A DNA stretch of 32,176 nucleotides. Source: a virus. The notes beneath the pieces were generated by a model that did not search any database, was not told where the DNA came from, and saw only the letters and a list, made by a program, of their open reading frames with translations. Of the stretch, positions 7,908 to 25,123 are shown one piece after another. A program made the position numbers and the translations under genes. Numbering within the stretch: the stretch's first letter is position 1; each line of letters starts with the position of its first letter. The stretch lies in IMG/VR virus record IMGVR_UViG_3300034167_000132, positions 1 to 32,176 of that record. One strand, written 5' to 3'.

Positions 7908-8215
7908 ATTGGAATAAAGATGTGCTAACATTTGCTTTTGGTGAGCTAGGATTAATGCCTAATGACTTTTACGCCTTGACATGGAATCAGTACTGCCTGA
8001 AATGTCAAGGCTTTTTTAATAGAGAAAAAAAAGAATGGGAAAGGATAGGTTGGGCAACATGGAACGGAATGAGAGTCCATGTAAATAAAGGAATGCCAAC
8101 ATATAAAAAATTTATGTCATTTATTTATGAAGATGATCATATAAAAGACATGGATAAAATCAAAGAACAAATGAATAAGGCGATGCTTAAATATTTGGAA
8201 AATGCAAGGAATTGA
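7889..8215 (+). CDS. Tail assembly chaperone, T part (made by -1 frameshift as G-T fusion)
   Basis: After slipping, reading continues KQGGKLNWNKDVLTFAFGEL and on to the stop at 8215, giving a fusion of about 216 residues with the G part from 7566. The stretch FGELGLMPNDFYALTWNQYC has the shape of T domains of tail chaperones (small helical domain with L-P/S-x-x-F-x-x-(L/M)-T-W). A separate start (GTG at 7922) is possible, but the open frame across the junction favours the fusion. It overlaps the tape measure start by 14 bases. The T domain binds the tape measure and recruits tube subunits. Confidence 0.8.
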   Translation, partial: KQGGKLNWNKDVLTFAFGELGLMPNDFYALTWNQYCLKCQGFFNREKKEWERIGWATWNGMRVHVNKGMPTYKKFMSFIYEDDHIKDMDKIKEQMNKAMLKYLENARN

Positions 8216-20973: not shown

Positions 20974-20994
20974 AATATTATTTTTATAACTTTA
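20964..20994 (+). promoter_or_regulatory. Promoter: TTTG (20964-20967), 19-nt gap, TAACTTTA (20987-20994)
   Basis: The -33 TTTG and the 19-base gap fit the Bacteroidota consensus. The -7 box differs from TAnnTTTG only in its last base. Transcription would start near 20999, giving an 80-nt leader that is exactly the structured RNA at 21000-21075. Confidence 0.7.
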
Positions 20995-20999
20995 AACAA

Positions 21000-21075
21000 T
21001 GTCCACATTTATTAACCAAAAAAACATAGCGTATAGCCTGATGGGAGTGGACACCTTGAGGGCATACGCTTTTTT
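21000..21075 (+). ncRNA. Pseudoknotted leader RNA, copy A (before ERF gene)
   Basis: The 5' strand tgtccac (21000-21006) is exactly complementary to gtggaca (21047-21053). Between them lie a 21-nt A-rich linker and the left arm of stem P1 (21028-21038). P1 pairs agcgtat with atacgct (21064-21070) plus gcc with ggc, with one bulged A. The core reads GGAGTGGACACCTTGA (21044-21059), 13 of 16 identical to copy B. Six t's at 21070-21075 follow P1, as in a terminator, and the coding ATG comes at 21080. I infer a cis-acting attenuator or riboswitch-like element. Family not recognised. Confidence 0.75.
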
Positions 21076-21079
21076 CATT

Positions 21080-21619
21080 ATGGAAAAATCAGAAACAATT
21101 ACAAGCCTAGCTAAAGCCTTAATAGACTTTCAGGGCAGAGTCCAGAAGATTTCAAAGGATGCTAAAAATCCATTCTTTAAATCAAATTACGCATCGTTAT
21201 CTAACATTCAGGATGCAATTAGCAAACCATTAGCCGAATCTGGTCTAGCTTACTCCCAGATGCCTAGCGGAGTGAATGGATTATGTACTATTTTAATTCA
21301 TGCCGAATCAGGCGAGTATTTAATGGAATCATTTATTATGCCAGTTAGTAAGCAGAATGATCCTCAAGCCGTAGGCTCTGCCATTACCTATGCCAAGCGT
21401 TATGCTTTAGCAGGAGTATTAGGCTTGAACATAGATGATGATGATGACGGAAACAAAGCAGCTGAGGATTCAAGAGCATGGCTTAATCCTAAAACAGATA
21501 AATGGACATCCGTAGTTCAAGCCTTAAAAGATGGATATACAATGGATGTGATATTAAAGAAATACAAGATCAGCACAGATAACCAGGCGTTATTAGAAAA
21601 GGAGGCTGCAAATGTCTAA
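21080..21619 (+). CDS. ERF-family single-strand annealing protein
   Basis: This 179-residue recombinase matches ERF: TSLAKALIDFQGRVQKISKD, PFFKSNYASLSNIQDAI, SGLAYSQMP, then DPQAVGSAITYAKRYALAGV and LGLNIDDDDDG. It anneals complementary single strands in phage recombination. I use the ATG at 21080 since the upstream in-frame ATG at 20999 would run through the structured leader; a 206-residue form starting at 20999 remains possible on a leaderless mRNA. It overlaps the next gene by 8 bases. Confidence 0.88.
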   Translation: MEKSETITSLAKALIDFQGRVQKISKDAKNPFFKSNYASLSNIQDAISKPLAESGLAYSQMPSGVNGLCTILIHAESGEYLMESFIMPVSKQNDPQAVGSAITYAKRYALAGVLGLNIDDDDDGNKAAEDSRAWLNPKTDKWTSVVQALKDGYTMDVILKKYKISTDNQALLEKEAANV

Positions 21620-22046
21620 CGAGTTAGTAGAGTTATCAGGCGTAATGTATGCGCCTGATTTCACAAAGAAAAAAGCCGAGCAGACCGGGATTAATTTAAT
21701 TAACAAACTCTTTGATGATGGCAATCAAACACCTACTCAGTTCTATTCTAACATAGCCCGGTTAAAGGCAGTAATTGATTCAGCAGATAGGACATTTAGA
21801 GATCGTTTAAAACTAAACGCCCCTGATAGTTATAATGGAGTATTGTTTACTCCTAAGAACGGAGCTGAGAGCCTTAATTATGATGAGGATGATATTTATG
21901 TATTGTTAGAGAATAAGCTAAAGCAAAGGCAGGAGTTATTAAAGACTGCGAGTAAATCAGATGAGATTATATTTGACTCAGAGGGTTGCGAAGTGCCAAA
22001 GGTTAGCAAGAAATTTAATAAGCCTTCAATAGTTATAACATTTTAA
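21612..22046 (+). CDS. Recombination-operon protein of unknown function (144 aa)
   Basis: The product begins MSNELVELSGVMYAPDFTKK, has DSADRTFRDRLKLNAPDSYN and DDIYVLLENKLKQRQELLKT, and ends in beta-like KKFNKPSIVITF. It is charged and mostly helical. Overlap with the ERF gene suggests a partner in annealing or replication. No named family is recognised. Confidence 0.6.
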   Translation: MSNELVELSGVMYAPDFTKKKAEQTGINLINKLFDDGNQTPTQFYSNIARLKAVIDSADRTFRDRLKLNAPDSYNGVLFTPKNGAESLNYDEDDIYVLLENKLKQRQELLKTASKSDEIIFDSEGCEVPKVSKKFNKPSIVITF

Positions 22047-22048
22047 TT

Positions 22049-22285
22049 ATGGATTTACCTAAAAGTTTTGACATTACTCCTAGTGGGAAAATTGTTGAAC
22101 GTGCAGAAATTGGACAAAAAGGATATGCAGAAAATATTGAATATGAACTCCAAATTACTATATCAGATTATGGAACTTTAATAATTCAATACTATGGAGA
22201 AGATGGTACATTTTTGCCTCTAGATCAATTAATAAAATTTATAAAATCATATAATAGAGATGAGTTACGTAAAAACAATGTATAA
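22049..22285 (+). CDS. Small protein of unknown function (78 aa)
   Basis: The product begins MDLPKSFDITPSGKIVERAE and has a central beta-rich part YELQITISDYGTLIIQYYGE, then QLIKFIKSYNRDELRKNNV. It lies between recombination and replication genes. Family unknown; confidence in translation comes from close spacing on both sides. Confidence 0.6.
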   Translation: MDLPKSFDITPSGKIVERAEIGQKGYAENIEYELQITISDYGTLIIQYYGEDGTFLPLDQLIKFIKSYNRDELRKNNV

Positions 22286-22487
22286 GCCTAAAAAGTACCT
22301 AAAGATTCCAGATAAGAAACGTATTGCTTTGACTTTGGAAATGATTGTTGGCAGAGGAGTAACTCCTGCTGATGCAAGTAAATATCTAAACCTATCTATG
22401 CCTAGCGTATGTGGATGGATGACTAAGTACTGGTTTTATCAAAAGCCAAATAATCCAATTGTATTAATTTTAAAATCAAACGTATGA
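22260..22487 (+). CDS. Small helix-turn-helix protein (75 aa)
   Basis: LEMIVGRGVTPADASKYLNL followed by SMPSVCGWMTKYWF looks like a homeodomain-like helix-turn-helix with a G/S turn and a recognition helix. The start at 22260 overlaps the previous gene by 26 bases; an in-frame ATG at 22278 is an equal alternative. It could be a local regulator or a replication accessory protein. Confidence 0.6.
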   Translation: MSYVKTMYKPKKYLKIPDKKRIALTLEMIVGRGVTPADASKYLNLSMPSVCGWMTKYWFYQKPNNPIVLILKSNV

Positions 22488-22687
22488 ACATCAAAATTAA
22501 ACAGGTTGAGGAGTTTTTAATAACAGGACAACCGCTGACAGTATTAGATTGTTTTAACTTATTTAAGACTTTTGAATTGCGCAAGATAGTTTGCGTTTTG
22601 AAAACTAGAGGCTTAAACATCAAAGGTGAATGGCAGACTAATTATCAAACAGGATCGAGGTATAAAAAGTATTATTTAATTAATTAA
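22484..22687 (+). CDS. Small winged-helix protein (67 aa)
   Basis: The product begins MNIKIKQVEEFLITGQPLTV. It has the pattern L-T-x-x-D-C-F-x-x-F followed by ELRKIVCVLKTRGLNIKGEW and YKKYYLIN. This fits the short winged-helix (HTH_39-like) proteins common in phages, in which a helix-turn-helix is followed by L-x-x-x-G-x-x-I. It lies just before the replication promoter and may regulate it. Confidence 0.6.
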   Translation: MNIKIKQVEEFLITGQPLTVLDCFNLFKTFELRKIVCVLKTRGLNIKGEWQTNYQTGSRYKKYYLIN

Positions 22688-22693
22688 TTTTTA

Positions 22694-22701
22694 TATCTTT
22701 G
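22694..22701 (+). promoter_or_regulatory. Replication promoter (TATCTTTG)
   Basis: A perfect TAnnTTTG box in the gap after the winged-helix gene. Transcription would start near the ATG at 22704, so the mRNA leader to 22806 would be the structured RNA of 22715-22800. A clear -33 element is not seen. Confidence 0.65.
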
Positions 22702-22714
22702 GAATGGTAGCTGA

Positions 22715-22800
22715 CTTCGACATTAAGCTATTAGAAAACATTTATACCCTTGTGGTGGATAGGAGTCGAAGCCTTGAAACCGCAAGGGTATTTTATTTTA
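22715..22800 (+). ncRNA. Pseudoknotted leader RNA, copy B (before replisome organiser)
   Basis: The 5' strand cttcgac (22715-22721) is exactly complementary to gtcgaag (22765-22771) in the core loop. A 22-nt A-rich linker follows. Stem P1 pairs atacccttg (22744-22752) with caagggtat (22783-22791), extended by a G-U and gg with cc. The core GGAGTCGAAGCCTTGA (22762-22777) aligns with copy A at 21044-21059. A t-rich tract (22791-22800) ends the element and the coding ATG is at 22806. The changed loop and stem bases are all compensated between the copies. Confidence 0.75.
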
Positions 22801-22805
22801 AGCAA

Positions 22806-23471
22806 ATGGATAAATTACAATGGTTTAAGTTTACGATTAGTGACTGGGTTATGGGCAAGATCATGCGATGCCCGGAGGTTACTCAAGCAAGGTTTATCTG
22901 GTTATGCTGCCAGTATTGGAATAAAGAATGTGTAATGAATTATGATGATGCTGAGTTAGAGATTGAAAAAGAGCATTTAACTATTTTATTGCAGAAGAGA
23001 ATTATTTTATTAGATGGTGATCATATAAAAATTAAGTTTTTAGATAGCCAACTGATTGATATTTTAGAAGTTAGTAAAGGCAGAAGTATAGCTGCTAAAG
23101 CTAAATGGGATAAATTCTATGATAAAAAGACCGATGCAAATGCTATGCAAGTCTATGCAAATGCAGAGCAAATGGATGCAAGTGCAATGCAAAACTCTGC
23201 AAGTGCTATGCAAAACGATGCAGATAAGATAAGAGTAGATAAGAAAAGAATATATATACCATCTCTATCTGAGGTTGAGTTGTATTTTAAAGATAATGGC
23301 TATACCAAAGAATCAGCTATAAAGGCTTTTCATTATTACGAAGAAAATAATTGGAAGGATAGCCGTAACAATCAGGTTAAGAATTGGAAGCAGAAGATGC
23401 AAGGCGTATGGTTTAAGGATGAGAATAAAGCTACTACTTTGCAGTACATAGATTTTAGACCGGGCAACTGA
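22806..23471 (+). CDS. Replisome organiser / replication initiation protein
   Basis: The 221-residue protein begins MDKLQWFKFTISDWVMGKIM, with CPEVTQARFIWLCCQYWNKE, a DUF1376/DnaD-like N-terminal domain to about residue 100. A repetitive linker (residues 110-137, four 7-residue units such as DASAMQN) leads to a C-terminal domain: SLSEVELYFKDNGYTKESAI, YYEENNWKDSRNNQVKNWKQ, which is typical of phage replisome organisers and helicase loaders. The start at 22806 is used because the in-frame ATG at 22704 would run through the leader RNA. It overlaps the helicase gene by 1 base. Confidence 0.8.
   Translation: MDKLQWFKFTISDWVMGKIMRCPEVTQARFIWLCCQYWNKECVMNYDDAELEIEKEHLTILLQKRIILLDGDHIKIKFLDSQLIDILEVSKGRSIAAKAKWDKFYDKKTDANAMQVYANAEQMDASAMQNSASAMQNDADKIRVDKKRIYIPSLSEVELYFKDNGYTKESAIKAFHYYEENNWKDSRNNQVKNWKQKMQGVWFKDENKATTLQYIDFRPGN
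23133..23216 (+). repeat. Four 21-bp iterons inside the replisome organiser gene, candidate origin
   Basis: Four tandem units of exactly 21 bp (23133, 23154, 23175, 23196) share the pattern nATGCAAnTGCnATGCAAnnn, and a fifth begins at 23217. They code the linker of the initiator protein. Lambda and several lactococcal phages keep their origin as iterons inside the initiator gene in just this way. A very A+T rich stretch (gaaaagaatatatata, from about 23242) follows and could be the unwinding region. Confidence 0.7.
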
Positions 23472-24358: not shown

Positions 24359-24692
24359 TTTACAACTAGAGTTAGAGATTGAAGCATTTGCTTTATACTA
24401 CCAAGACAAAATAAAGAGTTCTGAGGCATTATTATCTTTCGCAGGTATAATCTGCCACCTTGATGGTGAAGTGTTCTTATATCGCATTAAAAACGGCTTA
24501 AACGAGAAGATTCAGGATGTTATAGATAGGAATGAAAAATTAAAGGATATTTATGACCATTTTTTTATTTTATCAGAGCAGATAGAGCAAATGAAAAACA
24601 TCGTAAAAAAGAATAATGCTAGAATGCTAGAGATGGAATCAGAGAATGAAAAATTAACGAAATTATTAAGCAATTATAAATCATGGGAATAA
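24348..24692 (+). CDS. Coiled-coil protein of unknown function (114 aa)
   Basis: The start at 24348 is chosen because earlier in-frame ATGs lie deep in the helicase gene. The product begins MKSNLQLELEIEAFALYYQD and ends in a coiled coil: FFILSEQIEQMKNIVKKNNA, RMLEMESENEKLTKLLSN. It overlaps the helicase gene and the RadC-like gene by about 10 bases each. Function unknown. Confidence 0.6.
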   Translation: MKSNLQLELEIEAFALYYQDKIKSSEALLSFAGIICHLDGEVFLYRIKNGLNEKIQDVIDRNEKLKDIYDHFFILSEQIEQMKNIVKKNNARMLEMESENEKLTKLLSNYKSWE

Positions 24693-25123
24693 AAACTATA
24701 AAATTATTTGAATTAAAGAAAATACAGACAGAATTTCCATCTGTTAAAATAACAAGTCCTGATGAAGCAGCTGATTTTATTAGACAATTTTATTTTGATG
24801 ATATAGAAATATTTGAAAGTTTTTTTATTTTATTGCTTAATCAGGGAAATAAAACAATTGGATATGCTAAAATAAGTCAGGGCGGAATAGCGGGTACAGT
24901 TATTGATGTTAGGATAATTGCTAAATATGCGATTGAAAGTTTGGCAGTATCGGTTATATTAGCTCATAATCATCCATCTGGAAACCTAATACCGAGCCAA
25001 TCGGATAAAAATATGACTGAAAAAATAAAATCAGGATTAAAGATTTTAGATATTAACGTTTTTGATCATATTATTTTAACTGCTGATAGTTTTTATTCAT
25101 TTGAGAGCAATAATATTTTATGA
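24683..25123 (+). CDS. RadC-like JAMM-domain protein
   Basis: The 146-residue protein has a complete JAMM metalloprotease motif: H95-x-H97-x7-S105-x2-D108 in AHNHPSGNLIPSQSDKN, after GIAGTVIDVRIIAKYAI. This is the RadC domain without the N-terminal helix-hairpin-helix, as in many phage and mobile-element RadC proteins. The motif is intact. Its role in DNA metabolism is not settled for the family; here it lies among recombination and replication genes. Confidence 0.88.
   Translation: MGIKTIKLFELKKIQTEFPSVKITSPDEAADFIRQFYFDDIEIFESFFILLLNQGNKTIGYAKISQGGIAGTVIDVRIIAKYAIESLAVSVILAHNHPSGNLIPSQSDKNMTEKIKSGLKILDINVFDHIILTADSFYSFESNNIL

Follow-up and report, generated by a model that had tools for sequence, protein, structure and literature searches.

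Analysis of the window, a stretch of viral DNA of 32,176 nucleotides, revealed two copies (A and B) of a leader RNA, which are two members of one RNA family of flavobacterial phages that has no counterpart in Rfam. The leader is about 95 nt long, lies 5' of phage DNA-replication genes and, judging from the comparison of related sequences, is a pair of kissing hairpins. Its elements follow one another on the coding strand in the order promoter (TAnnTTTG), hairpin P0, whose loop carries segment S1, a linker rich in A (about 10-23 nt), hairpin P1/P2, whose loop carries segment S1', U-tract and start codon. P0 comprises 5-9 bp, and S1 and S1' are complementary segments of 7-9 nt. P1 comprises 7-14 bp, some of them G-U pairs, and contains a 4x4 internal loop, GGAU/UGAA, which could hold tandem G.A pairs, with the mini-stem P2 (NGG/CCN) on top. 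The GGAU/UGAA core is missing from some divergent members; the P2 of divergent members reads, by visual inspection, AGCG/CGCT (L120 and L122), AAAAG/CTTTT (L129) or GTGTTG/CAGCGC (L133). About 35 alleles of S1 occur across the family, the kissing helix being free in sequence. To our knowledge, few structured regulatory RNAs have been described from phages infecting Bacteroidota.

The features of both copies are listed in Table 1. The initial annotation had described the two copies, each with a 7-bp S1:S1' helix, P1, an RGG/CCT mini-stem and a CCTTGA core and each ahead of a replication or recombination operon, and all of these elements are present in the sequence at those places. The fold stands as described there, except that the P0 hairpin holding S1 was missed. 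P0 is clear in copy B (8 bp, 22705-22712 with 22726-22733) and weak in copy A; most relatives have it too, and the copy A orthologues L019, L021 and L030 have a P0 of the form AACATT/AATGTT. The minimum-free-energy fold of copy B consists of exactly P0, P1 and P2, with S1' in an 8-nt loop. An alternative hairpin in copy B, CCTTG/CAAGG, was rejected as it is not conserved. The distance from the U-tract to the ATG, given as 6-11 nt, is correct for copy B (6 nt, ATG at 22806), while that of copy A is slightly shorter (4 nt, ATG at 21080). Sensing of a ligand, protein or phage state by the pseudoknot and joint control of both operons, as put forward in the initial annotation, are hypothetical; the two copies have a common core, yet the S1 of each is complementary only to the S1' within the same copy. 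Twenty nucleotides of the linker of copy A, tattaaccaaaaaaacatag (21005-21024, plus strand), recur with 95% identity at positions 173-192 of the minus strand, at a gene end, with no structure seen around it.

Table 1. Features of leader copies A and B and the first genes of their operons (window coordinates)
Feature	Position	Strand	Remark
Copy A promoter -7-like element TAACTTTA	20987..20994	+	one mismatch to TAnnTTTG; promoter-anchored scan
Copy A S1, TGTCCAC	21000..21006	+	complement of 21047-21053
Copy A P1 5' arm: AGCGTAT, bulged A, GCC	21028..21038	+	also in minimum-free-energy fold
Copy A internal-loop 5' side TGAT, P2 5' side GGG, then A	21039..21046	+	
Copy A S1', GTGGACA	21047..21053	+	in P1/P2 loop
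Copy A P2 3' side CCT, internal-loop 3' side TGAG	21054..21060	+	
Copy A P1 3' arm and U-tract	21061..21075	+	terminator-like; U-tract 21070-21075; fold
ERF-family single-strand annealing protein	21080..21619	+	first gene of operon A; Pfam PF04404, E 1.4e-26
Copy B promoter -7 element TATCTTTG	22694..22701	+	matches TAnnTTTG
Copy B P0 5' arm TGGTAGCT	22705..22712	+	comparison of relatives, fold
Copy B S1, CTTCGAC	22715..22721	+	in P0 loop
Copy B P0 3' arm AGCTATTA	22726..22733	+	comparison of relatives, fold
Copy B linker	22734..22743	+	A-rich, single-stranded
Copy B P1 5' arm ATACCCTTGTGGT	22744..22756	+	also in fold
Copy B conserved GGAT, P2 5' side AGG, A	22757..22764	+	
Copy B S1', GTCGAAG	22765..22771	+	
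Copy B P2 3' side CCT, conserved TGAA	22772..22778	+	
Copy B P1 3' arm ACCGCAAGGGTAT and U-rich tail	22779..22799	+	terminator-like; tail from 22792
Replisome-organiser-like protein	22806..23471	+	first gene of operon B; name from initial annotation; no Pfam match

Orthologous loci were fetched by their ERF and replisome-organiser proteins, not by the RNA, and leaders were then detected in them by a covariance model. This protein-selected set holds 58 leaders (37 B and 21 A, including the two of the window); it counts only the leaders that the model detects, and some of the contigs are near-identical. Loss of the helices in relatives that keep the proteins had been proposed as evidence against the structure, and all 58 detected leaders keep a perfect S1:S1' helix, formed by eight alleles. 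Six of these are found in B leaders (CTTCGAC, CATCGAC, TATCGAC, CATCCAC, CAACGAC and CATGCAC) and two in A leaders, where TGTCCAC/GTGGACA accounts for 18 of the 21 and CGTCCAC/GTGGACG for the remaining three. The compensatory changes reported between copies A and B are confirmed and extend to the relatives. In an alignment of 21 diverse sequences, whose segments were cut by hand and which therefore leans to structure, 96.4% of the cells of 25 pairs are paired (100% in S1), 23 of the 25 pairs have changed on both sides, and covariation reaches 0.892, as compared to 0.213 for shuffled and at most 0.179 for slid controls. When pairing was tallied independently, with shuffled partners as the control, the values were 97% versus 56% for S1, 98% versus 59% for P1 and 84% versus 48% for P0, the members in this tally having been found without use of P0. 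Since both partners of nearly all base pairs have been replaced in evolution, it is the fold itself that is kept.

Across 1.94 Mb of loci, a descriptor that specifies structure and no sequence picks out 51 distinct sites, as against four in 0.66 Mb of first-order Markov controls. Five of the 51 sites were dismissed as false, and the other 46 make up the structure-selected leaders; a T-rich tail and a P0 of at least 5 bp were required in this set, so that neither feature is independent there, while the set of 58 orthologues is independent. Some of the structure-only members (e.g. L111, L119 and L128) may be chance matches. In the window, a promoter-anchored structure scan returns copies A and B only, and order-2 Markov controls give 0.0 per genome, which puts the pair well above what chance would produce. 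A covariance model trained on relatives, among them copy B but not copy A, scores copy B at 104 bits and copy A at 44 bits. The next match in the window, 7928-8023 with 23 bits, was taken as chance as it is a hairpin without S1 pairing. This terminator-like hairpin, GCCTTGACAT..ATGTCAAGGC followed by T6, lies inside an ORF (7922-8215) and has no kissing partner. A coding repeat was also considered and rejected: an ATG upstream of each leader does open a frame that runs through it, but A and B have their common core in different reading frames, and the relatives of the ERF protein start at the ATG at 21080, which also counts against this reading.

The promoter consensus of Bacteroidota is TAnnTTTG. 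This element, which was not used to select the 46 structure-selected leaders, precedes 39 of them, its last base lying mostly 12-15 nt before S1, against a background of 2.9% of random windows. With a promoter just upstream of each copy, the leader RNA should represent the 5' end of the transcript, which is predicted to begin a few nt past TATATTTG in phages lillamy9-1 and morran9-1. Kissing loops before replication genes are also the classic design of plasmid copy control, in which an antisense RNA targets the leader of a rep gene. At the phage leaders, promoter elements in antisense orientation show no enrichment (9/46, or 19.6%, versus a background of 18.9%), and we regard an antisense target as highly improbable here. 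Extremely improbable is a function as a structure of single-stranded DNA, such as an origin or strand-transfer site. The sites do lie near replication genes and outside coding sequence; however, in every case the leader lies on the coding strand between the promoter and the first gene, homing endonuclease genes included, and P1 contains G-U pairs.

The genes that follow the leader are diverse. Besides ERF, the first genes include several types of organiser protein (with Lin1244_N in L024 and L165), an SNF2/methylase protein (L207; by visual inspection, both parts are neighbouring genes in L167) and, likewise by visual inspection, a small ORF 5' of a helicase (L220), a RecT-like ORF with a YqaJ-like neighbour (L213) and a pentapeptide protein (L133). 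Free-standing homing endonucleases also occur as the first gene, of the HNH or HNH/NUMOD4 type (L046, L120, L163, L186 and, by visual inspection, L201) or of the GIY-YIG/NUMOD3 type (L170). Nearly the same leader precedes five different first genes in the window, L003, L005, L006 and L012. Conversely, the gene whose product begins MKLFITNKSVF has a leader of the GGAU type in L220 and quite a different one in phage mumin6-1 (L418), the DNA of the two being identical from the U-tract through the gene start while the leaders are unrelated in sequence. Because one leader serves different first genes and one gene has two unrelated leaders, the leader together with its promoter behaves like a cis module that can be exchanged between early genes. 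A structure conserved in the 5' UTR, on one strand and upstream of differing genes, is what characterises cis-regulatory leader RNAs, and the phage leader shows all of these features. An autoregulatory site bound by a protein of its own operon, as in the leaders of T4 gene 32 or of ribosomal protein genes, would be in line with the nucleic acid binding of the ERF and replication protein families. It is nevertheless very improbable, since the leader stays while the first gene is swapped among ERF, organisers with unrelated N-termini, SNF2/methylase, HNH and GIY-YIG endonucleases, and the exchangeability of the module argues against autoregulation by one protein.

The organiser proteins behind the leader in the window (22806-23468), L006, L024, L003 and L028 have a common C-terminal domain (...NNQVKNWKQKMQGVW) and unrelated N-terminal domains that are exchanged, as if by domain shuffling. 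The phage replication region of the window also encodes a RadC-family JAB-domain protein (24683-25120; PF04002, E 3e-36).

We favour, with moderate confidence, a cis-acting 5' leader that gates the replication and recombination operons, in which P1 and the U-tract would act as a terminator controlled by the kissing loop; on the sequence evidence, the leader probably serves as an on/off gate for phage replication. The leader would be the first part transcribed from the promoter of each operon, and P0 would fold first, presenting S1 in its loop. On emerging, S1' would kiss S1 over 7-9 bp, and the 3' arm of P1, which ends about 20 nt past S1', would emerge only after the kiss, with RNA polymerase by then at the U-tract before the start codon. 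In the 46 structure-selected leaders S1' lies 16-22 nt from the base of P1, and with about 20 nt between its end and the U-tract there is room for the kiss to form shortly before the polymerase meets the stop. P1 and the U-tract are predicted to constitute an intrinsic terminator, and the terminator-like shape that the initial annotation had seen in them is borne out. A T-rich tail adjoins P1 in 46/46 structure-selected leaders, T-richness having been in part required for their selection. The kiss would then decide whether P1 closes fully, which would stop transcription, or incompletely, which would allow read-through into the replication genes. A signal, which might be a small molecule, a host or phage protein, or the speed of elongation, would shift this balance, and the likeliest point of contact for it would be the conserved GGAU/UGAA internal loop. 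Some divergent members have lost this core, which speaks against a single strict ligand pocket throughout the family. Moreover, an H-type pseudoknot accommodates both the kiss and a complete P1, and the kiss could therefore stabilise the stop as well as prevent it. The length of the linker is borderline for the geometry of a coaxial stack and favours neither outcome, and no alternative anti-terminator helix is conserved. The weak P0 of copy A also counts against the model. The broader proposal, that phages carry a new class of kissing-loop switch which senses a signal in the cell via the tandem G-A loop of the terminator hairpin and decides whether the replication operon is read, and which would thus be a riboswitch or riboregulator devoted to this decision, is possible, though we hold it as doubtful.

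The nearest known relative in design is the guanidine-IV riboswitch, an ON switch with two hairpins joined by a pseudoknot, of which the 3' one is the terminator (PMC9788692, PMC7736828, PMC11611296). There, the kissing loop helps the terminator to dissociate, whereas a longer terminator stem leaves a shorter linker and so impedes kissing (PMC11611296). Like guanidine-IV (GGAM-1, mepA; variant Gd4v), the phage leader has two hairpins, a loop-loop pseudoknot, a terminator-form 3' hairpin with a U-tract and a coding region directly behind. However, highly conserved bases in and around the pseudoknot form the pocket of guanidine-IV, whereas in the phage leader the pseudoknot is free in sequence and the conserved GGAU/UGAA lies in P1; the downstream genes also differ, being those of guanidine export and metabolism (sugE, mepA) in the one and of replication, recombination and homing endonucleases in the other. 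The loop bases that define the class in its published description are not seen in the leader, which is therefore not filed as guanidine-IV. Should the terminator control proposed here hold, the leader would be a second and independent family with the unusual mechanism of guanidine-IV, and would offer a way into the control of phage replication.

The initial annotation had recognised no known riboswitch class, in agreement with the search of Rfam 15 at the gathering threshold, in which neither the window nor 16 other member-bearing loci (126 kb) yielded a match, apart from one tRNA in L177; none of the weaker matches was relevant. Pedo-repair and radC are RNA motifs associated with repair-type genes. 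Both had been suggested for comparison as Bacteroidota motifs, but neither (RF01715 and RF01754, respectively) matches in the window or the 16 relative-bearing loci, and radC is listed for Proteobacteria (PMC2864571). The STAXI motif (RF01728) comprises pseudoknots near DNA-handling genes (PMC2864571); unlike the leader, it consists of tandem repeats in Enterobacteriales, with UUCG loops and no terminator, and the leader has no match to it in Rfam. In the corrinoid (cobalamin) riboswitch, the L5-L13 kissing loop controls formation of the expression-platform hairpin, acting on the RBS or a terminator (PMC10653944). Control by a kissing loop would be common to both, but the corrinoid riboswitch has a large separate aptamer, and its kissing partner is not the terminator itself.

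The putL and putR RNAs of phage HK022, about 70 nt each with two stem-loops, are located downstream of PL and PR (PMC9378689). The leader resembles them in being a two-hairpin RNA just past the early promoters of phages, in one or two copies per phage and ahead of long operons, and could in principle be a persistent anti-terminator RNA acting on RNA polymerase, as does put, which contacts the polymerase and suppresses both pausing and termination. We consider this quite improbable: neither a kissing loop nor an own terminal U-tract has been described for put, contact with the polymerase is expected to keep bases whereas the loops and stems of the leader are free in sequence, and no host or phage partner is known.

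Bacteroidota rely little on Shine-Dalgarno pairing. The leader might instead be an element of translation or stability, whose kissing structure at the 5' end shields the mRNA, governs how ribosomes reach the start codon, or both, the U-rich stretch being a ribosome-binding region at which no termination takes place. The start codon follows closely after P1 (8-54 nt in the 46 structure-selected leaders), the RNA should start at +1 or close to it, and the genes behind it are diverse, all of which would suit such an element. This reading is nonetheless unlikely, as the ATG of several members lies 40-54 nt away, too distant for direct occlusion, and the U-tract that every member has directly at the foot of P1, even if partly selected for, suits a terminator and is not needed by a translational hairpin.

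The leader is also present in isolated Flavobacterium and Cellulophaga phages, 5' of the operon for the replication protein and primase, in virus groups that comprise Lillamyvirus, Muminvirus, Elemovirus and the Cellulophaga phages of Assiduviridae and Pachyviridae. The S1/S1' pairs are GTGAGAAG/CTTCTCAC in morran9-1, GTGAGACG/CGTCTCAC in lillamy9-1 and tooticki6-1, GTGGAACG/CGTTCCAC in mumin6-1 and snusmum6-1, TGAGAGC/GCTCTCA in elemoA_1-9B, GTGAGATG/CATCTCAC in elemoA_2-5C, GTGGAGG/CCTCCAC in elemoF_6-3D, and GTACGAC/GTCGTAC and CTTCTGAC/GTCAGAAG in Cellulophaga phages phi19:1 and phi18:3, respectively. A single site, which heads the operon for the replication protein and primase/helicase, was found in lillamy9-1 (whole genome) and in elemoA_1-9B and phi19:1 (50 kb searched in each), and two in the window, at control rates of 0 to 0.15 per genome. 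Phages carry one or two copies before early genes, usually a single one that heads the replication operon, counts in metagenomic contigs being lower bounds as these are fragments. The cultured hosts, all environmental, are Flavobacterium sp. LMO6, LMO9 and BAL314 and Cellulophaga baltica. As the leader occurs in isolated phages with cultured hosts, its mechanism is directly testable, and the sequence freedom of the S1 pairing makes compensatory mutants simple to design.

Copy B has no DNA match among annotated phages, which were reached via the replication protein. The relatives of the organiser protein in annotated phages are all found in Flavobacterium or Leeuwenhoekiella phages, which suggests that the host of the window is probably a flavobacterium; those in Flavobacterium phages are annotated as 'replication protein' and adjoin primase/helicase genes. 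A model search of 396 Bacteroidota genomes with strict filters, in which 10 candidates per genome were scored, gave no match, which is weak evidence, and the core pattern occurs in the same genomes at a low rate (19 sites, counted by pattern and not by pairing at each site). In 41 Flavobacterium genomes, three weak model matches resemble ordinary terminators without a convincing kissing loop, and a pattern scan of genome contigs gave chance matches only among the matches listed. No convincing model match was found in the Bacteroidota phages 11b, 6H, P2559S, P2559Y, P12024S, P12002L, RAP44, B124-14 and crAss001. Covariance model R1 contains no pseudoknot. It performs poorly on divergent members, and the miss in these nine phages therefore does not show absence.

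A second conserved element, AGTTATnGGTwATCTnTAAACCnTT..ATG, with a short hairpin of the GGTT/AACC type, is located between the U-tract and a small first ORF in divergent Flavobacterium and Cellulophaga phages (L388:4763, L424:14228, L425:10471, L122:4748, L129:3285, L105:210 and L005:2799).
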